Source of the DNA: Nitrospina sp.
GTDB lineage: Bacteria > Nitrospinota > Nitrospinia > Nitrospinales > VA-1
NCBI GenBank assembly: GCA_018702695.1
Contig: JABIYR010000096.1
Location: forward strand, 1 to 33,474
Direction of reading: 5' to 3'
DNA: 33,474 nt
Both the position numbers and the translations under genes were made by a program. This document shows, in pieces, positions 3,321-33,474 of the stretch (position 1 is the first letter of the stretch; each line of letters opens with the position of its first letter). The notes beneath the pieces are model-generated. The model ran no database searches. It was not told where the DNA came from and was given only the letters and a program-made list of their open reading frames with translations.

Positions 3321-3854
3321 TTACTGGGAATATTCACCCAGTTTTCCTTTTTCAAGAAAACGGTCCAGTTCTTCGGGCCGAATTTTAAAGTTCTCCATAT
3401 CTTTAACGGCTTGAATGCTCTCGGGGGTCGCTCCTTTTTTTCGAGCGTGTTGCTCTGAAACAGGGCTCAAACCCCTTATGCTGGAACCCGATGTGGATTC
3501 ACGAGCGGTCATCTTTTGTCTGCCTCCCAAAGCACCGAGCACGTCTTCATCGTTTTGGCTATCGGCTGGAGCTTTTTTAGAAAGCTTGAATCGGAAAATC
3601 CAACCTGTTTTTCCTTTAGCCAAGACCTGAAAAAATTTGCCAGATTTTTTCTTCACTTCCACAGCCGTTCCTTGTTTTAGCTTGGTCAAAACTTTAGAAC
3701 GTGCAGACGCTTCGGCTTGCATTTTAGTGGCCGATTTTTTTACATACCAAGTTTCGGCGGCGACCCAATGCGGAAGCAAAAAGAACACAACTGCGGAAAG
3801 AGTCATTGCAGATCGAATGAAAAAGGAGTGATACATAACAAGGGTTTGTAGCAA
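3321..3854 (-). CDS. Secreted bacterial SH3-domain protein
   Basis: Signal peptide (LSAVVFFLLPHWVAAE), then TWYVKKSATKMQAEASARSKVLTKLKQGTAVEVKKKSGKFFQVLAKGKTGWIFRFKLS (SH3b-like). Exact start uncertain. Confidence 0.78.
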   Translation of the reverse strand: MLQTLVMYHSFFIRSAMTLSAVVFFLLPHWVAAETWYVKKSATKMQAEASARSKVLTKLKQGTAVEVKKKSGKFFQVLAKGKTGWIFRFKLSKKAPADSQNDEDVLGALGGRQKMTARESTSGSSIRGLSPVSEQHARKKGATPESIQAVKDMENFKIRPEELDRFLEKGKLGEYSQ

Positions 3855-3982
3855 AGTTTATGGAATCAATCAAGCTTCTCCCAAACTGAGCGAAACGTCA
3901 ACCTAAAACTCTCGCACACAATCGATCGCTTAAACTGTAGTGCGAAAATTCAATCTAAGTAGGTAGAGGTGGGTTTTTCGAC

Positions 3983-4882
3983 TCAGCTTTTTTTAGCTTG
4001 CTGTTCTAATGCTTTCTTGAGCCGAGGCCAGTTGAAGGCCGAGCCGGGGTCGTATTTGCAGGTCACTTCCTTTTCACCTTTTTGCACGTGCGCATGACCC
4101 AGAATGCCAGCAAATTTGGCATAATTTTTTAATCTGTCGAGTGGGTGGCGGCCAGATTTTTTGTCGAATGGCACTTGCGGTTTAATACCGGGCAAAAGGC
4201 GATTGACCCCAATACATAGGTGAATCAAAGCTTGATATTGTGGCTCTGTAAAATCCCACATACGGATCATGCGCCCATTGATCTTTTTACTGAAATAACC
4301 CCTTTCCCCATAGGTGCGTGATGGGGTGGGCTTAAACCCGGCAGTGAGAATTTTTTTTTGAAAGCGATCGGGGAGGTCGAGAACCCATTGCCCATTTCTC
4401 TTACGATACTTATCGTGGTCGGATGGGAGCCATTCTGACTCGCAAGCCAATGCTTCGGAGGCAAGGTTTGCCATTTCAACATGAATCGCTCTTTCGTTTC
4501 CTTGTCGGTCATCAGCGGGCGCGGTATTGGTTTTCCAGTACAAGTCACAGGTTTGGTAAAGGGTTCCATCGAGATCGAGATAGAAATGACTGCCCTTGAA
4601 GGTGCTTTCCTCCATCAATTGGTGACAATGGTGGGAGCTATAACAGGCATCGTAATGCAGAACGAGTTGGTGGACACGTTGCGTCAGCTCTTGGTAGGCT
4701 AACGCCGGGTTCAGGATTTTGTAGGCCGAATCTTTTTGGGATGGCGCGTCATTGAGCTTGGGGTCATGCTGAGAGCAGGTAGACCGGCCTCTTTTATTTG
4801 GGCAGGCAAAGCCTTCGTCCCATAAAACAACGCGGGTTCCAATCTCTATTTTTTTGCCACAGGCAACGATTTTTTGATTCAT
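3983..4882 (-). CDS. N-acetylmuramoyl-L-alanine amidase / AmpD-PGRP-like protein
   Basis: VLHYDACYSSHHCHQLM...GSHFYLDLDGTLYQTCDL...HVEMAN...GHAHVQKGEKEVTCKYDPGSAFNWPRL, matching the Amidase_2 layout (early His, later H and K-DPG-x-F-x-W). Confidence 0.72.
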   Translation of the reverse strand: MNQKIVACGKKIEIGTRVVLWDEGFACPNKRGRSTCSQHDPKLNDAPSQKDSAYKILNPALAYQELTQRVHQLVLHYDACYSSHHCHQLMEESTFKGSHFYLDLDGTLYQTCDLYWKTNTAPADDRQGNERAIHVEMANLASEALACESEWLPSDHDKYRKRNGQWVLDLPDRFQKKILTAGFKPTPSRTYGERGYFSKKINGRMIRMWDFTEPQYQALIHLCIGVNRLLPGIKPQVPFDKKSGRHPLDRLKNYAKFAGILGHAHVQKGEKEVTCKYDPGSAFNWPRLKKALEQQAKKS

Positions 4883-16773: not shown

Positions 16774-18597
16774 TTACATGAACAAGTGTAAAAAGGATTC
16801 CTCAAACTCACTGAACCAGATCTGAACTTCTATCGGAATGAGGCTATTGATATAGGTCATATAGCCGGTCGCAAGAATGATGCCCAATGCGATCAGCAAA
16901 AAACCACTGAACAGGTTTGTGGTATGCAGGAAAAAAGTTTTTCCAGCCAGAGTTAAATCCCACCCTTTGCCTCGAAGCAGGGTCCAAAACAACCCGTCTT
17001 TCGGTAGGTTGCCGCATATGGTGGCAACGATGATGAGAGGAAGACCCAACCCTACGGCATAGAAAAACAATAGGAGCATTCCTTGTAAAACGGTTTTTTC
17101 TGAGGCCGCGAGCATGAGAATACTGGAAAGAATCGGTCCGACACAGGGTGTCCAGCCCAATGCGAAGGTCGCACCAAACAGGAAGTAGCCCACATAAGTG
17201 GAAGTGGGTTTGCCTTTAAAGGTGGCACCAGAAAAACCTTTTCCGAACAAGGTCATGATCCCAAATATGCCGACAATGAAGCCTCCGGCTTGAGTGATCT
17301 GAAACATATAGTCCCGGAGAATTCGCCCTAAAACACTGGCTGAGGCCCCCATTGCGACAAACAAAGTGGCAAGCCCAAAAAAGAAAGCCAATGACATTCG
17401 ACCCATGCGGGCGCGATCAGATTGAGCTGTCACTGCAAAATATGCTGGCAGAATCGGTAAGGTGCAGGGAGATAAAAAACTGAACACGCCTGCGATGAAT
17501 GCCAATAATGTCAGGGCCACGATTCCCGATTCGGGTAGATTTGGTTTGGGCTGAAAAGGGTTCAAGGGTGCAGATGGAGATGCCTCGGATTTTGATGTCT
17601 TGGCAGAAAGCGTCGAAGTGGGTGTTGAATTCCTCATGCTCTTAGAGAAAGTAGAGGTCGTTGTTTTCATCGACGCAGGTTGAGTTCTACTGGCGCAACG
17701 AAAACCTACGTCTGGGCCGGGTTCATCGGCGTTGGAGTACTGCCGATAGCCACTACGAGAAAACATCTTGATGGCCTGATCGTACAAGGCACCGGGGAAA
17801 TGCCCGATATCACTGGCGGAGTGACCCCGCAGAATTTTTAACTCCGATTGGTAATATTGGCTTTGATGCGTGCTTCCCTTGTAAGGCTGATAATCGTCGG
17901 CGACCCATTCCCATACATTTCCAATCAGGTCATGCACCCCTTCCGGGCTGATGCTTTTGGGGAAAGAACCGACTGCCACAGGCTTGTTCTTGCTTCCAGA
18001 TCGGTTGGACAGGTTAGCCAATCCTGCTTGAAATGCGTTGCCCCAAGGATAGTCGTTGCCAATTTTTCCGCGTGCGGCACGTTCCCATAATTTTTCTGTG
18101 GGTAATTCTTTCTTCGCCCATTGGCAGAAGTTTGCCGCGTCATACCAACTGACGTGAGTGACAGGGACGTTGTCTTTGCCTTCGGGGAAATTGATGCCCT
18201 TCCAGTTCTGCGGTGGCACGGCATCAAGAGCTTCGATATATTTTTTATAACGTTTATGGGTGACTTCATAACGATCAATATAAAATTCTTTTAGAAATAT
18301 TTTCTGCTCGGGGGTTTCGTCTGCATACCAAGGTTTTGGAATGCCGAGAGAAAGTGCTTCGGCGGCTTCATCCTTTTTATTCGTGCCGAATATGAAAGGG
18401 CCGGGGGGAATATAGACCATGTCCCCTTCAAGCGAATAATCGCTTTTTTCTTGCTTTTCTTGCGACCAACTTGCATGAGGAAAGAGCAAAAATATGCCAA
18501 GCAATAATAACGTCGGAAACTGTTTGTTTGTTAAGCGTGAAAATGAATTGTTCTCTAAAGGTAAGGCAGAAAAATATTTCATGGACAACGTGGTCAA
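16774..18597 (-). CDS. Fusion protein: N-terminal SUMF1-fold domain + C-terminal CcdA/DsbD-like transmembrane domain
   Basis: DMVYIPPGPFIFGTNKKDE...NVWEWVADDYQ...VGFRCASR (SUMF1); Ser/Thr/Pro-rich linker; then FLSPCTLPILPAYFAV and GWTPCVGPILSSIL (CcdA Cys-Pro motifs) in a multi-TM region. Confidence 0.92.
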   Translation of the reverse strand: MTTLSMKYFSALPLENNSFSRLTNKQFPTLLLLGIFLLFPHASWSQEKQEKSDYSLEGDMVYIPPGPFIFGTNKKDEAAEALSLGIPKPWYADETPEQKIFLKEFYIDRYEVTHKRYKKYIEALDAVPPQNWKGINFPEGKDNVPVTHVSWYDAANFCQWAKKELPTEKLWERAARGKIGNDYPWGNAFQAGLANLSNRSGSKNKPVAVGSFPKSISPEGVHDLIGNVWEWVADDYQPYKGSTHQSQYYQSELKILRGHSASDIGHFPGALYDQAIKMFSRSGYRQYSNADEPGPDVGFRCASRTQPASMKTTTSTFSKSMRNSTPTSTLSAKTSKSEASPSAPLNPFQPKPNLPESGIVALTLLAFIAGVFSFLSPCTLPILPAYFAVTAQSDRARMGRMSLAFFFGLATLFVAMGASASVLGRILRDYMFQITQAGGFIVGIFGIMTLFGKGFSGATFKGKPTSTYVGYFLFGATFALGWTPCVGPILSSILMLAASEKTVLQGMLLLFFYAVGLGLPLIIVATICGNLPKDGLFWTLLRGKGWDLTLAGKTFFLHTTNLFSGFLLIALGIILATGYMTYINSLIPIEVQIWFSEFEESFLHLFM

Positions 18598-19115
18598 TCC
18601 TTCAACAGGTTTTCAAAATATAGCAGGTTGTCCGGGCTAGCCCAATCTTCTGCCCCTCTCAGCTCGCCGATGATATTTCCTTCTGGGTCGATCATGAATG
18701 TGGTGGGAAGGCTGACCACCCCGAATTTATTGCTGGCTTGCAATTGCTGGTCAAGCAGGATGGGGAAATTAAGACCGTTGGCCTTGATATAAGGTTCCAC
18801 AATCTGGGCTCCAAACATATCGTTGGAGATGGCAAGCAAAGAAAACTTTTTAGACTTATGGCGTTGGTAAAGGGTCTCTAATGAGGGCATTTCCATTTTG
18901 CAGGGGCCGCACCAAGTGGCCCAGAAATTCACCAAAACATATTTCCCTCTGTGCTGATGGAGACTGACCGATTCTCCCTTCAGCGATTTGAGCGTGAAAT
19001 CGGGGGCCGGGATTGTCTCATTGGGCAATGCGAACGCAAGCGACGCAAAAAACAAAATTAGAATCCAAGCTGATGCGAATGAAACCAACCATGTGATTTT
19101 TTTTGAGAAGATCAT
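18594..19115 (-). CDS. TlpA/ResA-like thioredoxin-fold protein, exported
   Basis: Signal/TM N-terminus; APDFTLKSLKGESVSLHQHRGKYVLVNFWATWCGPCKMEMPSLETLY (WCGPC); SLPTTFMIDPEGNIIGELRG. Overlaps the next gene by 4 nt. Confidence 0.94.
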   Translation of the reverse strand: MIFSKKITWLVSFASAWILILFFASLAFALPNETIPAPDFTLKSLKGESVSLHQHRGKYVLVNFWATWCGPCKMEMPSLETLYQRHKSKKFSLLAISNDMFGAQIVEPYIKANGLNFPILLDQQLQASNKFGVVSLPTTFMIDPEGNIIGELRGAEDWASPDNLLYFENLLKD

Positions 19116-24703: not shown

Positions 24704-26203
24704 ATGACCCCAAAATTAGATGTTCTTCTGGTTACTCCCCCAAGCAGAGATCGAGTTTTTCAGGGGCTTGCCGAAAACCTTACCGGAATAGAACCCCCTG
24801 TCTGGTCGACTTTATTGGCCACATTTCTACAGCAGAAGGGAGTGTCGGTTGAAATTCTGGATGCAGAGGCCGAGTCAATCGGCTTCGATGCCACGGCGGA
24901 TAAGATTGTGGAGGTCGATGCGGTTTTAACGGTTTTTGTTATTTATGGTCATCAACCCTCGGCCTCGACGCAATGTATGCCGGCGGGGCGAGAGGTGTGC
25001 ACGCGCACCCACGAGAGAGCGCCTCAGCTCAACACTATGGTAATGGGCACTCATGCTTCGGCCCTTCCTGCAAGAACTTTGAGTGAAGAACCTTATAAGT
25101 TTGTATGTTGTGGAGAAGGCCCGGAAACGGTGTACCAATTGGTAGAAGTGCTGAAGGCAGGGAGTCAACAATTCAGCCATGTTCCGGGTTTATGGTATTG
25201 GAGCGAAGGAACGGTTTGCTCAAACCCGAATGCAGATAACTTTGAGAACCTTGATCTACATATTCCCGGGCAGGCTTGGGATTTGTTGGATATGAGTCGT
25301 TATCGGGCGCATAATTGGCATTGCTTTGATGATATTGAACACCGACAACCTTATGCTTCATTGCAAACGAGTTTGGGGTGTCCGTACAAATGCTCCTTTT
25401 GTTGTATCAACGCGCCTTTTGGGGGTGCGGGGATCCGTTACTGGTCGCCAAAATTGATCGTGGATCAGATTGATGTGTTGGTGAACAAATACTCGGTGAA
25501 GAATATAAAAATTCCCGATGAAATGTTTGTTCTCAGCGAGCAACATGTTTTAGGTATTTGCGATTTGATCATAGAGCGAGGCTATGATCTTAATATTTGG
25601 GCGTATGCGCGAGTCGATACGGTCAAAGATCGGTATTTGGAAAAATTAAAACGAGCGGGTTTTAACTGGTTGGCTCTTGGGGTCGAGTCGGGCAGTAAGT
25701 ATGTTCGCGATGGGGTTGATAAGGGTCGGTTTGGCGATCTCGATATCGTCAAGGTGACCGACAGAATAAAAGAGCATGATATTTATATTATTGCCAACTA
25801 CATCTTTGGTTTGCCCGATGATACGCATTCAAGTATGCAGGAGACTTTAGATCTGGCTCAAGAGATCAATGCGGAATGGGCTAATTTTTATTGTGCGATG
25901 GCTTACCCCGGCTCTCCTCTCTATGAACGAGCCAAAGCTATGAAATCTCCTCTTCCTGATGATGCGGGAGGTCCAGGATGGATTGGGTATTCTCAGCATG
26001 GTTACGATTCTTTGCCCTTGCCCACGGATACCTTGAGAGGGCAGGATGTGCTTGATTTTCGTGATGAGGCGTTTGAGAAATATTTTAGCAATGCTTCTTT
26101 TTTAAGTATGATCCAGAAAAAATTTGGCCAGCCTGTGGTGGATCATATTCATGAAATGATGGCTGTAAAGCTTAAGAGAAGGCATCGGGATGGAATGAAA
26201 TGA
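24704..26203 (+). CDS. B12-binding-domain-type radical SAM protein
   Basis: N-terminal DVLLVTPPSRD...EPPVWSTLLATFLQQKGVSVEILDAEAE; CPYKCSFCC (CxxxCxxC); NIWAYARVDTVKDRYLEKLKRAGFNWLALGVESGS. Confidence 0.92.
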   Translation: MTPKLDVLLVTPPSRDRVFQGLAENLTGIEPPVWSTLLATFLQQKGVSVEILDAEAESIGFDATADKIVEVDAVLTVFVIYGHQPSASTQCMPAGREVCTRTHERAPQLNTMVMGTHASALPARTLSEEPYKFVCCGEGPETVYQLVEVLKAGSQQFSHVPGLWYWSEGTVCSNPNADNFENLDLHIPGQAWDLLDMSRYRAHNWHCFDDIEHRQPYASLQTSLGCPYKCSFCCINAPFGGAGIRYWSPKLIVDQIDVLVNKYSVKNIKIPDEMFVLSEQHVLGICDLIIERGYDLNIWAYARVDTVKDRYLEKLKRAGFNWLALGVESGSKYVRDGVDKGRFGDLDIVKVTDRIKEHDIYIIANYIFGLPDDTHSSMQETLDLAQEINAEWANFYCAMAYPGSPLYERAKAMKSPLPDDAGGPGWIGYSQHGYDSLPLPTDTLRGQDVLDFRDEAFEKYFSNASFLSMIQKKFGQPVVDHIHEMMAVKLKRRHRDGMK

Positions 26204-26228: not shown

Positions 26229-27260
26229 TTGACGATTAAATATAAATATAGCGGCAGGGGATATTCTTCTCGCGAAAACCAAGCTTTGAGCCTTGATAAG
26301 GAATTGTTGGTTGCATTTTATCGCGACATGCTCCGTATTCGAAGAATTGAAGAGGAGATCGAAAGCCGTTATCACGAAGATGAAATGAAATCTCCGATTC
26401 ATCTTGTTATGGGGCATGAGGCGGTTTCGGTTGGCAGTTGTTCGGCATTAAAAAAAGATGATCTGATTTATTGCGGTCATAGGACGCACGGACATTATCT
26501 TGCTAAAGGCGGAAGCCTCAAGGGAATGCTGTCTGAGTTGTATTGCCGGATTAATGGTTGTGCTGGGTCGCGTGGCGGCTCGATGCATCTTTTGGATAAG
26601 AGCGTTGGGATGGCAGGCTCGTCAGCGATTGTTGCCGGGGCCATTCCCATTGCTACGGGGGCGGCGCTGAGTTTTCAGTTGAAAAAACAAGAGCAGGTGG
26701 TCGTCGCCTATCTGGGAGATGCGGCCACGGAAGAAGGTGCTTGTTGGGAGGCGGTTAATTTTGCGGCTCTAAAAAAACTGCCGGTTATTTTCTTTTGTGA
26801 AAATAATTTTTTTTCTGTGTGTTCCTCGTTAGAAGTGCGCCAACCGGCAAATGTTGAAATTTATAAAAAGGCCGAAGGCTTTGGTCTTCCGGGGGTGCAG
26901 ATAGATGGCACTCAAGTTTTGGATGTTTATGAGGCGACCCAGAAAGCCGTTGCTAGAGCAAGAAAAGGCGAGGGGCCAACATTCATTGAGGCTCTGACAT
27001 ATCGATGGCGCGGGCATGGCGGGGCAGGCGATGACAGTGCCTCGGGGTATCGTGATCCAGAAGAAGTTCGCCATTGGGAGCAGTTTTGCCCGATCAATGG
27101 TTTGTATGACTACCTCGTTAAAAAGGGTTTATACAATGCGGCTGAAAAAGATTTGGCTGAAAAAGAAATCACAGCAGAAATTCAAGAGGCCTTTGAGTTT
27201 GCGATTTCCAGCCCCAACCCGGAAGAAAAAGATCTGTACACACATGTTTATAGTCCATAA
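26229..27260 (+). CDS. TPP-dependent 2-oxoacid dehydrogenase E1 alpha-like protein (TTG start)
   Basis: FYRDMLRIRRIEEEI, HRTHGHYLAKGG, GSRGGSMHLLDKSVGMAGSSAIVAGAIPIATGAAL, GDAATEEG...CENNFFSV (TPP motif), RWRGHGGAGDDSASGYRDPEEV. Confidence 0.92.
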   Translation: MTIKYKYSGRGYSSRENQALSLDKELLVAFYRDMLRIRRIEEEIESRYHEDEMKSPIHLVMGHEAVSVGSCSALKKDDLIYCGHRTHGHYLAKGGSLKGMLSELYCRINGCAGSRGGSMHLLDKSVGMAGSSAIVAGAIPIATGAALSFQLKKQEQVVVAYLGDAATEEGACWEAVNFAALKKLPVIFFCENNFFSVCSSLEVRQPANVEIYKKAEGFGLPGVQIDGTQVLDVYEATQKAVARARKGEGPTFIEALTYRWRGHGGAGDDSASGYRDPEEVRHWEQFCPINGLYDYLVKKGLYNAAEKDLAEKEITAEIQEAFEFAISSPNPEEKDLYTHVYSP

Positions 27261-27274
27261 CTCTAAAAATATAG

Positions 27275-28312
27275 GTGCTTATGCCTTGGGCTGAAGCTTT
27301 AATTGCATCAAAATCTGAAGAACTCCCCAGTCCTCAAGAAGGCCGAGTGCTTTCCTATGTCGATGCGCTACACGAAGCATTGGCTTTAGCTTTAGGGTTA
27401 GACCCTAATGTGATCGTTCTGGGGCAGGGAGTGAATGACCCGAAAGGAATGTTTGGGGTCACGACAGGTCTACATAAAAATTTTGGTATAGAACGGGTTT
27501 TCGACACGCCGCTTTCTGAAGAAGGCTTGTTTGGCGTTTGTACGGGTGCGGCGATGAATGGAATTCGGCCTGTCTACTTGCATAACCGCCCCGATTTCCT
27601 GTTGTTGGCCTTTAACCAGATCGTGAGCCATGCGAGCAAGTTTCATTATCTGGATAACGGCGAGACGAGTGTTCCTCTTGTGTCGTGGGCGGCTATTGGG
27701 CGTGGCTGGGGTTCTGGGGCTCAGCATTCTCAGGCGATTCAAGGGCTTCTCTTGGGTGTGCCCGGTCTCAAAATCGTGATGCCAAGTACTCCGTATGATG
27801 CCAAAGGCTTGATGCTCGCGGCCATCGCTGATAATAACCCGGTGCTGATTTTTGAACACCGCTGGTGCATGCGTAACAAGGGTGTGGTTCCTGAAGGGAT
27901 CTACGAAGTTCCCCTGGGTAAAGGGGTTTATCGTCAAACGGGCAACGATCTCACTATTGTCGGAACATCACATTCGATAGAACTTGCAACTCAGGCTATG
28001 GGCGAACTTTCAGATTCTGGCATCACCGCCGATGTGATTGACCTGCGAACGCTAAAACCTCTGGATGAGGATATTATTTTCGAGTCGGTGCGAAAAACGG
28101 GGAAAATTCTTATCGTGGATACGGGCTGGGAAATGGGAGGCGTTTGCGCAGAAATTGGTTGTCTGGTCGCGGAGAAATGTTTTTCTTCTCTCAAGGCTCC
28201 GGTCAGACGCATTGGTTTGCCTGATATACCGACTCCCGCCGGTTATACGCTGGAACAATTGTTGTACCCGGACGTGCAGCGAATTGCCGGTGTGATCAAA
28301 GAAATGGTCTGA
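27275..28312 (+). CDS. TPP-dependent 2-oxoacid dehydrogenase E1 beta-like protein (start GTG 27275 or ATG 27281)
   Basis: SYVDALHEALALALGLDPNVIVLGQGV, RVFDTPLSEEGLFGVCTGAAMNGIRPV, LKIVMPSTPYDAKGLMLAAI, VIDLRTLKPLDEDIIFESVRKTGKILIVD. Confidence 0.93.
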   Translation: MLMPWAEALIASKSEELPSPQEGRVLSYVDALHEALALALGLDPNVIVLGQGVNDPKGMFGVTTGLHKNFGIERVFDTPLSEEGLFGVCTGAAMNGIRPVYLHNRPDFLLLAFNQIVSHASKFHYLDNGETSVPLVSWAAIGRGWGSGAQHSQAIQGLLLGVPGLKIVMPSTPYDAKGLMLAAIADNNPVLIFEHRWCMRNKGVVPEGIYEVPLGKGVYRQTGNDLTIVGTSHSIELATQAMGELSDSGITADVIDLRTLKPLDEDIIFESVRKTGKILIVDTGWEMGGVCAEIGCLVAEKCFSSLKAPVRRIGLPDIPTPAGYTLEQLLYPDVQRIAGVIKEMV

Positions 28313-28406: not shown

Positions 28407-29342
28407 TTGATGAAGATTCTGGTGACAGGTGGAGCGGGGTATATCGGTTCGGTTCTTGTTCCGATGTTGTTGCTCAAAGGCCATGAAGTTACAGTGCTGG
28501 ATAATTTTATGTATAAACAAACGTCCCTTTTGGATTGCTGTCACCATGAAGGCCTCACGATTATCAATGGGGATGTTCGCAATGCAGAGTTGGTGAAAGG
28601 GTTGCTAAAAACCCCAGATGCGATTCTTCCGTTAGCTTGTTTAACCGGGGCTCCATTGTGCTCTAAAGACCCGGTTGGTGCGCGGACCATCAATTTTGAT
28701 GCGATTAAAAATATTGAGGAATCGAGAAGTAAAAAACAGATCATGATTTTCCCGACCACGAATAGTGGCTATGGAGTGGGAGAAAAGGGTATTTTCTGTA
28801 CCGAAGAAACTCCGCTTCGCCCTGTTTCTTTGTATGGAAAATATAAGGTTGAAATTGAAAACCATTTGTTGGCTTCTGAGAATTGTATGACGTTTCGTTT
28901 TGCGACCGTGTTCGGTGTTAGCCCTCGAATGCGCCTAGATTTGCTAGTGAATGATTTTACTTATCGTGCTGTTTACGATCGGTTTTTAATTTTGTTTGAA
29001 GCGCAATTTAAGCGCAACTACCTTCATGTAAGGGATGCCGCGAGAGCTTTTATTCATGGCTTGGAATATTTTGAAAGCATGAAAGGGGAGCCTTATAACG
29101 TTGGGTTGAGCGAGGCAAATATGAGCAAGGCCGAGCTTTGTCAGGAAATTAAAAAACAAGTGCCCGATTTTTATTTTAGCGAAGCTGAGATTGGCGAAGA
29201 TGTCGATAAAAGAGATTATGAAGTCAGCAATGCTAAAATTGAGGCCACTGGTTTTAAAACAGAACACTCTCTGGCTTTTGGGATACAAGAGTTGATAAAA
29301 GGATTTCAGGTTATTAAGAGAAGTGAATATGCAAATATCTGA
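28407..29342 (+). CDS. NAD-dependent epimerase/dehydratase (extended SDR), nucleotide-sugar type
   Basis: MKILVTGGAGYIGSVLVPMLL (TGGAGYIG), LYGKYKVEIE (YxxxK). Confidence 0.9.
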   Translation: MMKILVTGGAGYIGSVLVPMLLLKGHEVTVLDNFMYKQTSLLDCCHHEGLTIINGDVRNAELVKGLLKTPDAILPLACLTGAPLCSKDPVGARTINFDAIKNIEESRSKKQIMIFPTTNSGYGVGEKGIFCTEETPLRPVSLYGKYKVEIENHLLASENCMTFRFATVFGVSPRMRLDLLVNDFTYRAVYDRFLILFEAQFKRNYLHVRDAARAFIHGLEYFESMKGEPYNVGLSEANMSKAELCQEIKKQVPDFYFSEAEIGEDVDKRDYEVSNAKIEATGFKTEHSLAFGIQELIKGFQVIKRSEYANI

Positions 29343-29372: not shown

Positions 29373-30380
29373 ATGATTATCAGTCGAACACCATTCAGAA
29401 TGTCATTTTTTGGCGGCGGGACGGATTACCCCGCTTGGTACAATGATAACGGTGGAGCGGTTCTGGCAACCACGATCAATAAATATTGTTATATAAGTTG
29501 TCGATACCTACCGCCTTTTTTTGAACATAAATATCGTATTGTCTATTCTAAAGTCGAGACAGTGAAGGACAAGGGCGAAATCCAACATCCTGTTGTCCGG
29601 GCCGCCATTGAGTTTATGGATATTGACCGAGGGTTGGAAATTCACCATGATGGCGATTTACCAGCGCGAACTGGTCTGGGTTCCAGTTCTTCTTTTACCG
29701 TTGGCATGTTACATGCCCTTTATGCACTGAAGGGAATCATGCCGACAAAAAAACGTCTGGCGTTGGAAGCGATTCATTTAGAGCGCAATCTTCTTAAAGA
29801 GAATGTCGGATCTCAGGATCAAATTCTTGCGGCTATCGGTGGGTTTAACAGAGTTGACTTTGACCCAGGAAATGAAAATGCGTACAGAGAAACTCCAATT
29901 TTGATTGATGCAAAGCGCATTCAGGAGCTTCAAAGTCATATGATGCTGTTTTTTACTGGTATCTCAAGATACGCCTCGAATGTCGCAAAAAAGAAGATTG
30001 ATAATATCCCTAATAACGGCAAGCAATTGACAACGATGTATCAAATGGTTGAGGAAGGGGTTTCAATTTTAACTTCAGGCGGGTGCATCACGGATTTTGG
30101 GAAACTATTGCATGAATCTTGGATGTTGAAGCGGGAATTGAGTGATGGAATAAGCAGTCAATACATTGATGAGATTTATACCGCCGCCAAAGGGGAAGGG
30201 GCTATTGGCGGAAAACTTTTGGGGGCCGGTGGCGGTGGATTCATGCTGGTTTTCGCGCCTCCGCAACAGCATTCTGCTATCGAGCATAAATTGCGAGACC
30301 TTCTCAGAGTGCCTTTTGAGTTTGAATCTCAAGGTAGCCAGATTGTCATGTTTCAGCCTGATATGGCCGACCTCGCTTGA
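29373..30380 (+). CDS. GHMP-family sugar kinase (D-glycero-D-manno-heptose-7-P kinase/HddA-like)
   Basis: IISRTPFRMSFFGGGTDYPAWY; LPARTGLGSSSSFTVGMLHALYA (GLGSSSS); KLLGAGGGGFMLVF. Confidence 0.9.
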   Translation: MIISRTPFRMSFFGGGTDYPAWYNDNGGAVLATTINKYCYISCRYLPPFFEHKYRIVYSKVETVKDKGEIQHPVVRAAIEFMDIDRGLEIHHDGDLPARTGLGSSSSFTVGMLHALYALKGIMPTKKRLALEAIHLERNLLKENVGSQDQILAAIGGFNRVDFDPGNENAYRETPILIDAKRIQELQSHMMLFFTGISRYASNVAKKKIDNIPNNGKQLTTMYQMVEEGVSILTSGGCITDFGKLLHESWMLKRELSDGISSQYIDEIYTAAKGEGAIGGKLLGAGGGGFMLVFAPPQQHSAIEHKLRDLLRVPFEFESQGSQIVMFQPDMADLA

Positions 30381-30381
30381 T

Positions 30382-31116
30382 ATGCCAGAGCCTAAATTAG
30401 CTGGTATCGATACTGTCATCCTTTGTGGTGGATTGGGTACTCGACTCAGAGAAGTGGCAAAAAATCTACCCAAACCGATGGTCGATATCAACGGCCAGCC
30501 TTTCTTGGATTTAATCATTCGCGATGCCTCCGAATTTGGCTTGCAAAAATTTATTTTATGCGCCGGTTATAAATCGGAAGTGATCGGTGATTATTATAAG
30601 CAAAAAAATGATCGGCTCGAATATGTTCTATCTGAAGAGGATGCCCCGTTAGGAACCGGAGGAGCTATTGTCAAAGCCAGGAGACTGATCGCCTCAAAAA
30701 TTTTTCTTGTGCTCAATGGAGATTCGATTTGTCGAATCGATTTGAAACAATTTCTGGCGTTTCACCTTGAGAAGAAAGCCCAAGTCTCCATTGCTCTGAC
30801 TTCTGTTGATGACCCGCAAGATTATGGCTCTGTAAGTTTGAATGAAAACCATGCCATTATGGGATTCAATGAAAAAGCCTCTGTTCCCCCTGGCGCGGGC
30901 TGGGTCAACGCCGGAATTTATATTTTTAATCGCGAAGCACTCAATGCTTTTCCGCAGGGTAAAAATTTATCGTTGGAATATGATGTGTTCCCTTCCTTTG
31001 TAGGTGAGGGGTTGTATGGCTATGCGAGCGCGGCGCGTTTATTCGATATTGGAACTCCACAGCGATTGGACATTTTGAAGGAATATTTTATAACGAAGGA
31101 GAAAGATGAAACTTGA
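30382..31116 (+). CDS. Sugar-1-phosphate nucleotidyltransferase (HddC-like)
   Basis: DTVILCGGLGTRLREVAKNLPKPMVDINGQPFLDLII; LVLNGDSICRID. ATG at 30382 lies just after the kinase stop; the track start at 30166 lies inside the kinase. Confidence 0.92.
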   Translation: MPEPKLAGIDTVILCGGLGTRLREVAKNLPKPMVDINGQPFLDLIIRDASEFGLQKFILCAGYKSEVIGDYYKQKNDRLEYVLSEEDAPLGTGGAIVKARRLIASKIFLVLNGDSICRIDLKQFLAFHLEKKAQVSIALTSVDDPQDYGSVSLNENHAIMGFNEKASVPPGAGWVNAGIYIFNREALNAFPQGKNLSLEYDVFPSFVGEGLYGYASAARLFDIGTPQRLDILKEYFITKEKDET

Positions 31117-32278
31117 TTGGCCTTTGATGGCAAATAATATTCCGCGTGAAGACCTAGACTGTCTGATCGAGTTTTTAAATACCGATTCCATCCTCACTCA
31201 GTCAAAAAATGTTCGTGAGTTTGAACGGGAATGGTCGCAGTGGCTCGGGGTCAAATACAGTGTGTTCTTGAATTCGGGATCTTCTGCCAATGTTCTCACG
31301 ATGGCAGCCATGAAGCATTTGTACGGCAACGGGGAGGTCATTCTTCCTCCTTTGACATGGGTGTCAGATATTTCTTCTGTTTTGTTTGCAGGTTTTACAC
31401 CGGTTTTTGTGGACATTGATCGTAAGACTTTGTGCATGGATGAAGATCAGGTGATCAAGAAATTAAACAAAAATACCAGAGCCGTTTTTATCACTTATGC
31501 ACAAGGGTTTAACGGCTTGTCTGACAGGCTATTACAGACCCTCAAAGAAAAGAATATTGCTCTGATAGAAGATGTCTGTGAATCGCACGGGGCTGAGTTT
31601 AAGGGTAAGAAATTGGGGTCGTATGGATGGGTCTCCAATTTTTCCTTTTATTATGCACATCATATGAGCACCATCGAAGGTGGAATGATATCGACCGACG
31701 ATGAAAAGCTTTATCAAGTCTGTCGCATGCTTCGCTCACATGGCATGGTGAGAGAGTCAACGGATGAAGACTTGACTCAATCTTATGCTAATGAATATCC
31801 AGAATTAAACCCGGAATTTATTTTTGCCTATCCCGGTTATAATATGCGTAACACAGAGATCGGTGCGGTCTTAGGTCGCAATCAACTGAAAAGACTGGAT
31901 GCAAACAATGCGAAGCGGCGTGATCATTTCAAATGTTTTCTGGATAACCTAGATGCCAACAAATATCAAACCGATTTCGCGTTGGAAGGCAGTTGTAACT
32001 ACGCATTTAACCTAGTTATTAAAAAGCCAGACTTTGATTTCTGTGACAGGGTGATGAGCCGCCTCAAGGAAGTGGGGGTTGAGTTTCGCCGGGGCAGTGC
32101 TGGCGGAGGGAACCAACTGCGCCAACCGTATTTGAAAAATATTGTTGGAAAAGATGAATATAAAAAATATCCTGTGGTCGAGCATATTCATTTTTTTGGA
32201 TTTTATATCGGGAACTACCCTGACTTAACAGAAGATCGAATTAAATCCTTATGCGACCTGCTAAATTCGATAGATTGA
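31106..32278 (+). CDS. DegT/DnrJ/EryC1-fold PLP/PMP enzyme, ColD/E1-type NDP-4-keto-sugar 3-dehydratase-like (Lys replaced by His)
   Basis: NSGSSANVLTMAA, EDVCESHGAEFKGKKLGSYG, FSFYYAHHMSTIEGGMIST (His-His where aminotransferases have Lys), GYNMRNTEIGAVLGRNQLKRLD, GNQLRQPYLKN, FGFYIGNYPDLT. Confidence 0.88.
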   Translation: MKLDWPLMANNIPREDLDCLIEFLNTDSILTQSKNVREFEREWSQWLGVKYSVFLNSGSSANVLTMAAMKHLYGNGEVILPPLTWVSDISSVLFAGFTPVFVDIDRKTLCMDEDQVIKKLNKNTRAVFITYAQGFNGLSDRLLQTLKEKNIALIEDVCESHGAEFKGKKLGSYGWVSNFSFYYAHHMSTIEGGMISTDDEKLYQVCRMLRSHGMVRESTDEDLTQSYANEYPELNPEFIFAYPGYNMRNTEIGAVLGRNQLKRLDANNAKRRDHFKCFLDNLDANKYQTDFALEGSCNYAFNLVIKKPDFDFCDRVMSRLKEVGVEFRRGSAGGGNQLRQPYLKNIVGKDEYKKYPVVEHIHFFGFYIGNYPDLTEDRIKSLCDLLNSID

Positions 32279-32311: not shown

Positions 32312-33250
32312 ATGCAAAAAAGAGATAAAATTTATGTGGCAGGGCATACGGGTCTCATAGGCTCTGCCTTGGTTCGGAGGTTGAAGAGCTTGTCTTATGA
32401 CAATGTTGTGACGCGAACACGTAATGCTCTGGATTTAACCGATAGAAAAAAAGTGGAACAATTTTTCCTGCAAGAAAAGCCTGACTGCGTTATTTTAGCG
32501 GCGGCAAAAGTAGGAGGCATCCATGCGAACAATACATATCCTGCCGAATTCATATTTGAGAATCTCTCCATCCAGAATAATGTTATTGACCTGGCTCACA
32601 GGATGGGCGTTAAAAAACTTCTATTCTTAGCCAGCTCCTGCGTCTACCCGAAGCTATGTGCCCAGCCTATGCAAGAGCAAGATCTATTGACAGGTGCTAT
32701 TGAGGCCACCAACGAGCCGTATGCGATTGCAAAACTGGCGGGGATCAAGATGTGCCAAGCTTACCAGCGACAATATGGTGCGAATTTCATCTCTGTCATT
32801 CCTGCGAATGTCTATGGCATGAATGATCATTTTGATGAAAATGGTCATGTTCTGGCGGCGTTGATAGAAAAATTTCACCTAGCTCGGCAACAAAAATTAG
32901 AAGATGTTGTCATTTGGGGGACAGGCAAACCCAAACGCGAATTCTTTTTTGTTAATGATATGGCCGATGCCTGTATATTTTTGCTCAATAATTATGATCA
33001 GCCAGACGTTATAAATCTGGGAACGGGTATAGAGACCTCCATTGCAGAGTTGGCGGGCCAGATAAAAAAAGTCATGAGATTTGATGGCGCGTTGAGGTTT
33101 GATACATCCAAACCCGATGGCAACCCTCGCAGGCTTTTGGATAGTAGTAAAATTAAAGCTCTGGGTTGGGAAGCCAGCACATCTTTAGAAAAAGGTCTGC
33201 AATTAACTTGCGAGTGGTATCAAAAGAATCTCGGAAGAACTCTTCTATAA
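32312..33250 (+). CDS. GDP-L-fucose synthase / ColC-like epimerase-reductase (SDR)
   Basis: IYVAGHTGLIGSALVRRL, ILAAAKVGGIHANNTYPAEFI, LASSCVYPKLCAQPMQEQDLLTGAIEATNEPYAIAKLAGIKMCQAYQRQYG, PANVYGMNDHFDENGHVLAALI. Confidence 0.92.
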   Translation: MQKRDKIYVAGHTGLIGSALVRRLKSLSYDNVVTRTRNALDLTDRKKVEQFFLQEKPDCVILAAAKVGGIHANNTYPAEFIFENLSIQNNVIDLAHRMGVKKLLFLASSCVYPKLCAQPMQEQDLLTGAIEATNEPYAIAKLAGIKMCQAYQRQYGANFISVIPANVYGMNDHFDENGHVLAALIEKFHLARQQKLEDVVIWGTGKPKREFFFVNDMADACIFLLNNYDQPDVINLGTGIETSIAELAGQIKKVMRFDGALRFDTSKPDGNPRRLLDSSKIKALGWEASTSLEKGLQLTCEWYQKNLGRTLL

Positions 33251-33251
33251 A

Positions 33252-33474
33252 CTAATCATCGGTTGGGTTGATCTGTAGTTCACGAGGCAGAATTCGCAGA
33301 GTATGGATATTTGTTTCTAGCGGCCATCCTGGGGTAGGGGTGAGTACGATGTTTGCATCGGTGATTCTGCGAAAGAAGATGCTGGGAATATCTAAAGGCC
33401 CCAGCTTGATGAACTCGACAACCGGTTTTATTCTTTCTCCGGGCGTGAACAATAATTTTATTTTAGCAGACCCC
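33252..33474 (-). CDS. Hypothetical protein, C-terminal fragment running off the window edge
   Basis: Frame stays open to the window end (GSAKIKLLFTPGERIKPVVEFIKLGPLDIPSIFFRRITDANIVLTPTPGW...NPTDD*). No recognised family. Confidence 0.5.
   Translation of the reverse strand, partial: GSAKIKLLFTPGERIKPVVEFIKLGPLDIPSIFFRRITDANIVLTPTPGWPLETNIHTLRILPRELQINPTDD

Follow-up and report, generated by a model that had tools for sequence, protein, structure and literature searches.

Does a gene that profile searches place among the aminotransferases encode an aminotransferase at all, and if it does not, on which sugar would its product act? The question is raised by an open reading frame, here called C3D, on contig JABIYR010000096.1 of a Nitrospina sp. 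genome (GCA_018702695.1); the whole contig, 33,474 nucleotides in length, is the window analysed here. The ATG start of C3D is preceded by a plausible ribosome-binding site (aaggagaaag), and its stop codon lies at 32276-32278. Membership in the DegT/DnrJ/EryC1/StrS family is clear, with a PF01041 score of 224.7 bits against a cut-off of 19.8 and Foldseek matches to DegT-family structures. Searches with Pfam and NCBIfam assign the protein to the aminotransferases, a label that conceals, as set out below, a large subfamily of predicted C3-dehydratases. A previous sequence-only reading had described an aminotransferase-fold DegT protein in which a histidine replaces the Schiff-base lysine, and alignments have since borne this out.

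The translation of C3D includes WVSNFSFYYAHHMSTIEGGMI and the motif FSFYYAHHMSTIEGG, in which the codons CAT CAT at 31658-31663 specify H185 and H186. The motif of Lys-type paralogues is K-x5-EGG (for example, NKIITTGEGG), so that the lysine position in C3D is H185 (codon 31658-31660); the K-x4-EGG register given earlier was off by one, although the range of residues 185-186 that went with it does include the right one. H186 was ruled out as the catalytic residue by this register, which is evident both in PDB alignments and in the lysine rows of a 75-row alignment. In the former, the variable residue of ColD chains carrying H188, H188N, or H188K aligns with H185, ColD being the GDP-4-keto-6-deoxy-D-mannose 3-dehydratase of E. 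coli O55 (PDB 2gms/3b8x). In the latter, the residue is histidine in 73 rows and lysine in the remaining two at exactly the same column, which fits the occurrence of 29%-identical Lys-type paralogues in two of the loci. Where a Lys-type sugar aminotransferase has the lysine of K-x5-EGG, C3D thus has H185, and the alignment proposed earlier as a check for a Schiff-base lysine came out on the side of histidine. Across 38 aligned members of the subfamily, drawn from many phyla, neither H185 nor H186 varies; judged from these alignments, the histidine is a conserved feature of the subfamily and more than the product of chance.

The earlier reading also held that C3D lacks the [2Fe-2S] cysteine segment of E1/RfbH, and this stands. 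In an alignment with five RfbH-type proteins, where four cysteines are invariant, three have no counterpart in C3D; only the first is matched by a cysteine (C158), which has a Cys counterpart in ColD as well. The NCBIfam RfbH model gives C3D 174.8 bits against a cut-off of 423. Moreover, a 100/99 branch of the maximum-likelihood tree separates C3D and ColD from RfbH and the Lys types. On these three grounds, membership of C3D in RfbH/E1 was rejected.

The position beside ColD is supported by sequence, fold, and tree. ColD is the top PDB match by sequence (phmmer E 1.6e-46), at 29% identity, and a Foldseek search with the AlphaFold model of C3D (pLDDT 92.1, pTM 0.91) returned ColD at all of ranks 1-6 (best 6.3e-29; TM 0.82-0.87), so that the structure check suggested earlier, made here with a predicted model, also put ColD first. 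GDP-perosamine synthase and other aminotransferases come close behind in the same ranking, and the fold alone therefore cannot decide the function of C3D. In the tree, the C3D subfamily forms one clade with 100/100 support; as it has no root and includes a long-branched neighbour (L138), the tree does not settle the number of Lys-to-His changes. Considering the 29% identity and the separate 100/100 clade, C3D is not an orthologue of ColD but a subfamily of its own that, to judge by sequence, works in the manner of ColD. The ColD-like part of the earlier ColD/E1-type assignment is retained, with the refinement that C3D is no orthologue of ColD itself. No characterised member of the subfamily was found in open-licence PMC papers.

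The strongest evidence for function comes from related cassettes. In five Nitrospinota (G047, G050, G051, G053, and G054), the slot of C3D is occupied by proteins that share 48-51% identity with E. coli ColD; these true ColDs carry the motif SHHISTMEGG and stand beside E1-beta, HddC, and a Cj1427-like SDR. The occurrence of true ColD where C3D would otherwise stand in the cassette argues that C3D is a C3-dehydratase and, along with phmmer, Foldseek, and the tree, supports the ColD-like, Fe-S-independent subtype put forward earlier. From these comparisons, the description ColD-like C3-dehydratase is well supported, C3 deoxygenation is strongly inferred, and a C3-dehydratase of some kind is what C3D very probably encodes. 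It could be argued, as the profile assignments would have it, that a sugar aminotransferase continues to transaminate despite its histidine, and SpnQ, another His-type enzyme, does transaminate when its reductase is left out (PMC8987622). However, ColD and E1 showed no transamination under comparable conditions (PMC8987622); moreover, the histidine is invariant in the subfamily and true ColD takes the place of C3D in the same cassette, all of which makes transamination a very improbable role.

If C3D is a C3-dehydratase, the genes around it bear on its substrate. C3D lies in a block of eight genes, arranged in the order given in Table 1, and the same gene order, complete or partial, occurs in other Nitrospinota. 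No description of such a cassette was found in open-licence PMC papers. The contig ends 224 bases past the Fcl-like gene (33251-33474), so further cassette genes may lie downstream. Elsewhere in the window, one reverse-strand ORF (16774-18597) appears from its translation to fuse a SUMF1-like (formylglycine-generating-enzyme) half with a DsbD/CcdA-like membrane half, and it is adjoined on the same strand by what reads as a TlpA-like thioredoxin (18594-19115).

Table 1. Genes of the C3D cassette, with positions in the window
Feature	Position	Strand	Evidence
B12-binding radical-SAM protein	24704..26203	+	PF02310 + PF04055
ThDP enzyme alpha subunit, PDH-E1-alpha-like; predicted part of C2-branching ligase	26229..27260	+	PF00676 E 8.5e-73
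ThDP enzyme beta subunit, PDH-E1-beta-like	27275..28312	+	PF02779/PF02780
Cj1427-like SDR, GDP-heptose C4-dehydrogenase-like	28407..29342	+	phmmer to PDB 6vo6/6vo8 E 2.6e-121, 308 aa
GHMP kinase, HddA-like (heptose-phosphate kinase)	29373..30380	+	PDB 3k85 E 2e-32
Sugar-1-phosphate guanylyltransferase, HddC-like	30382..31116	+	PDB 5xhw/6jq8 E 1e-39; ATG at 30382
C3D (DegT-family, predicted His-type C3-dehydratase)	31106..32278	+	390 aa; PF01041 E 2.6e-66
Fcl (GDP-fucose synthase)-like epimerase/reductase	32312..33250	+	PDB 1e6u E 6e-100

Several of these genes point to a heptose. The SDR shares the motif TNSGYG with PDB 6vo6, which we take to be Cj1427, and with 6vo8, and its T-N-S, Y143, and K147 are invariant in 40 aligned SDRs. 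The HddA and HddC models are among the leading NCBIfam matches of the kinase and the nucleotidyltransferase, well under their cut-offs (131 bits for HddA, where the cut-off is 600; 154 bits for HddC, with a mannose-1-phosphate guanylyltransferase model scoring higher), and the best PDB matches are heptose enzymes, 5xhw/6jq8 being a 6-deoxy-D-mannoheptose pathway protein. The HddC-like frame and C3D share 11 bases, at the start of the latter. The genome also has a GmhA-like isomerase, which falls one bit under its cut-off. The Fcl-like protein (450.9 of 500 bits by NCBIfam) keeps C110, Y137, K141, and H179, which are conserved in the cassette Fcls, and the CxxxCxxC cysteines of the radical-SAM protein are invariant in 58 aligned homologues. 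The Cj1427-like, HddA-like, and HddC-like neighbours together suggest a GDP-heptose. Cassette linkage alone is no proof of a substrate; a heptose is nonetheless probable, and GDP-4-keto-heptose would be the likely form. As for the earlier ideas on substrate, the neighbours favour GDP-heptose over GDP-4-keto-6-deoxymannose or a CDP sugar.

The same gene company recurs widely. When one genome per species was scanned, C3D relatives turned up at 242 loci in many phyla, and the subfamily is present in genomes and MAGs of Nitrospinota, Planctomycetota, Verrucomicrobiota, Desulfobacterota, Cyanobacteria, and Proteobacteria. At the best 80 of the 242 loci, which again span many phyla, the relatives are 60-72% identical to C3D, and the genes nearby include HddA (58/80), radical SAM (58/80), HddC (49/80), the Cj1427-type SDR (46/80), and Fcl (39/80). 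These figures also bear on the ordinary colitose pathway, in which GDP-mannose would be converted by Gmd, a C3-dehydratase, and an Fcl-like ColC into GDP-L-colitose. ColD is, after all, the closest solved relative of C3D, the Fcl-like neighbour with its epimerase/reductase residues could serve as ColC, and one C3D locus (L054) does have Gmd. A clear Gmd, however, lies near only one of the best 80 loci, set against the 46 with the SDR; no Gmd above cut-off is found in the genome of C3D itself, an assembly about 94% complete, for which such an absence is not final; and colitose synthesis requires neither an E1 or transketolase enzyme nor a heptose kinase. Gmd was therefore rejected as the main source of the 4-keto group, and colitose is an improbable product. 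By eye, a Gmd/RMD-like SDR is seen between HddA and E1-alpha in one true-ColD cassette (L122 of G051, 3710-4699), at the place taken by Fcl in another cassette.

On the model of ColD (PMC8987622) and the C3-dehydratase of C. jejuni (PMC10440746), C3D would be charged by L-glutamate, which converts PLP to PMP. PMP would then form a ketimine with the C4 ketone of the GDP-4-keto sugar, H185 would remove the C4' proton of PMP, the C3 hydroxyl would depart, and hydrolysis and tautomerisation would free a 3-deoxy-4-keto sugar. Work in vitro has shown that Cj1427, whose function is taken from the same source, and a C. jejuni ColD-type C3-dehydratase make GDP-D-glycero-3-deoxy-4-keto-heptose (PMC10680097), and the proposed combination of enzymes is thus chemically feasible. 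Since C3D sits beside a C4-dehydrogenase, a 6-hydroxy 3-deoxy heptose is predicted. The Fcl-like epimerase/reductase might also act on the 4-keto sugar, and the resulting heptose, 3-deoxy and possibly branched at C4, would go into a surface polysaccharide. Such a branch would come from the ThDP enzyme, an E1 alpha/beta pair here and a split transketolase elsewhere, by addition of two carbons to the 4-keto sugar.

The ThDP-binding residues of E1-alpha (GD...EE and N193) are conserved, and at a very strict threshold this subunit has no match in the PDB. The beta subunit is the only one of its kind in the genome at E<=1e-40, and no 2-oxoacid dehydrogenase E2 (PF00198) is found there, again with the reservation that the assembly is about 94% complete. 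For want of this acyltransferase, a role as the pyruvate dehydrogenase component was rejected; the two subunits form a pair outside a PDH complex, as in the ThDP sugar-branching enzymes (aKADH2). A ThDP enzyme is found near C3D at 61 of the best 80 loci: E1 alpha/beta only at 27, split transketolase only at 32, and both at two (Fisher p 5e-7 for near-exclusivity, with relatedness ignored), where transketolase is a label from the author's reading of the sequences rather than from a family search, and many loci that lack a ThDP enzyme are short contigs, in a set that includes draft MAGs. Mapped on the C3D tree, the E1/transketolase label changes eight times, at least five of them on supported branches. 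By these sequence counts, the two enzyme types are nearly mutually exclusive and have been exchanged at least five times.

Where, then, would the ThDP enzyme act? Transketolase makes sedoheptulose-7-P, a heptose precursor, and it is conceivable that the ThDP enzymes work upstream of the dehydratase, supplying a heptulose or 1-deoxy-ketose phosphate, with no branching of a keto sugar. A cassette in G006 (L118, 7706-13595) lacks C3D, with HddC followed directly by Fcl, and still has E1 alpha/beta; E1 thus does not need a 3-deoxy substrate, and C3 deoxygenation would be an optional part of the pathway rather than its core, which makes this locus a natural control for the contribution of that step. 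However, pyruvate-type E1 enzymes do not produce sedoheptulose-7-P, and the repeated replacement of E1 and transketolase by each other within one cassette is in keeping with a C2-transfer step common to both. The E1-type sugar enzymes already known, moreover, act on keto sugars (PMC12247030), and branching of antibiotic keto sugars has been proposed for both E1-type enzymes and split transketolases (PMC12247030). An upstream role is therefore rather unlikely, if a serious contender, and C2 branching by the ThDP enzyme comes close to an even chance. Against branching, carbon addition at C4 would leave C4 reduction by the Fcl-like protein without an obvious place.

Taken in full, the proposal is that a widespread cassette makes GDP-3-deoxy-heptoses with a two-carbon branch. 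The C4 of a GDP-heptose would be oxidised by the Cj1427-like enzyme, and C3 would then be deoxygenated by the new ColD-like subfamily; carboligation at C4 would add either a pyruvate-derived acetyl group (E1 alpha/beta) or a ketose-derived glycolyl group (split transketolase), with a final modification by the B12 radical-SAM enzyme. With all four steps included, this is tentative, and somewhat doubtful. The reading of C3D as a whole, a PMP/PLP-dependent, Fe-S-independent, ColD-like C3-dehydratase in a route with ThDP branching to a 3-deoxy heptose for surface polysaccharide, is reasonably likely. At two loci (L018 and L020), a pseudaminic-acid-like gene set adjoins the cassette (a PseC-like aminotransferase in L018, a PseB-like SDR, and others), which agrees with a surface-glycan region. 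Four Nitrospinota loci also have, by eye, a NUDIX-like ORF of about 190 aa beside the cassette (L017, 11760-12335; L020, 14152-14733; L119, 15159-15740; L120, 3544-4122).

By its sequence, C3D represents a new subfamily within a known enzyme type, and the undescribed cassette is the more interesting part. If the pathway is true, it would be a natural route to the 3-deoxy-heptoses made in vitro from mixed C. jejuni enzymes and a hitherto undescribed type of envelope-polysaccharide route, and would provide natural examples in which a transketolase uses a ketone sugar. According to a 2025 review, keto-sugar branching by transketolases is still unproven, and the cassettes are ready enzyme sets for asking whether ThDP enzymes of the E1 and split-transketolase types introduce branches into the keto sugars of envelope glycans.

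Among known systems, ColD has the fold of C3D, the histidine at the lysine position followed by a second histidine, the lack of the Fe-S cysteine set, and the same side of the DegT tree. It differs in that a conserved tail, FRRGSAGGGNQLRQPYLK, is peculiar to the C3D clade, and in that C3D is flanked by enzymes of the GDP-heptose type and by a ThDP enzyme rather than by Gmd. The C3-dehydratases of C. jejuni HS:5/HS:11 (PMC10440746) have a proposed reaction in common with C3D, the C3 deoxygenation of a GDP-4-keto-heptose, but they are 62-67% identical to ColD, belong to a different subfamily, and follow a 4,6-dehydratase, their substrate being 6-deoxy, in place of the C4-dehydrogenase found here. 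RfbH/DdhC/AscC (E1, the CDP-4-keto-6-deoxyglucose 3-dehydrases) have the DegT fold and His-His motif in common with C3D, yet possess all four [2Fe-2S] cysteines. As for the ThDP enzyme, its company with a 4-keto sugar pathway is known from yersiniose (YerE), which likewise involves a C3-dehydrase, and from the E1-type pairs of avilamycin, paulomycin, and kosinostatin (AviB1/B2, Pau11/12). YerE, however, is a decarboxylase-family flavoprotein with a CDP-sugar substrate, whereas the enzyme here is an E1-type pair; and while published E1-type pairs and split transketolases come mostly from antibiotic clusters, those seen here belong to GDP-heptose-type cassettes of Gram-negative bacteria.
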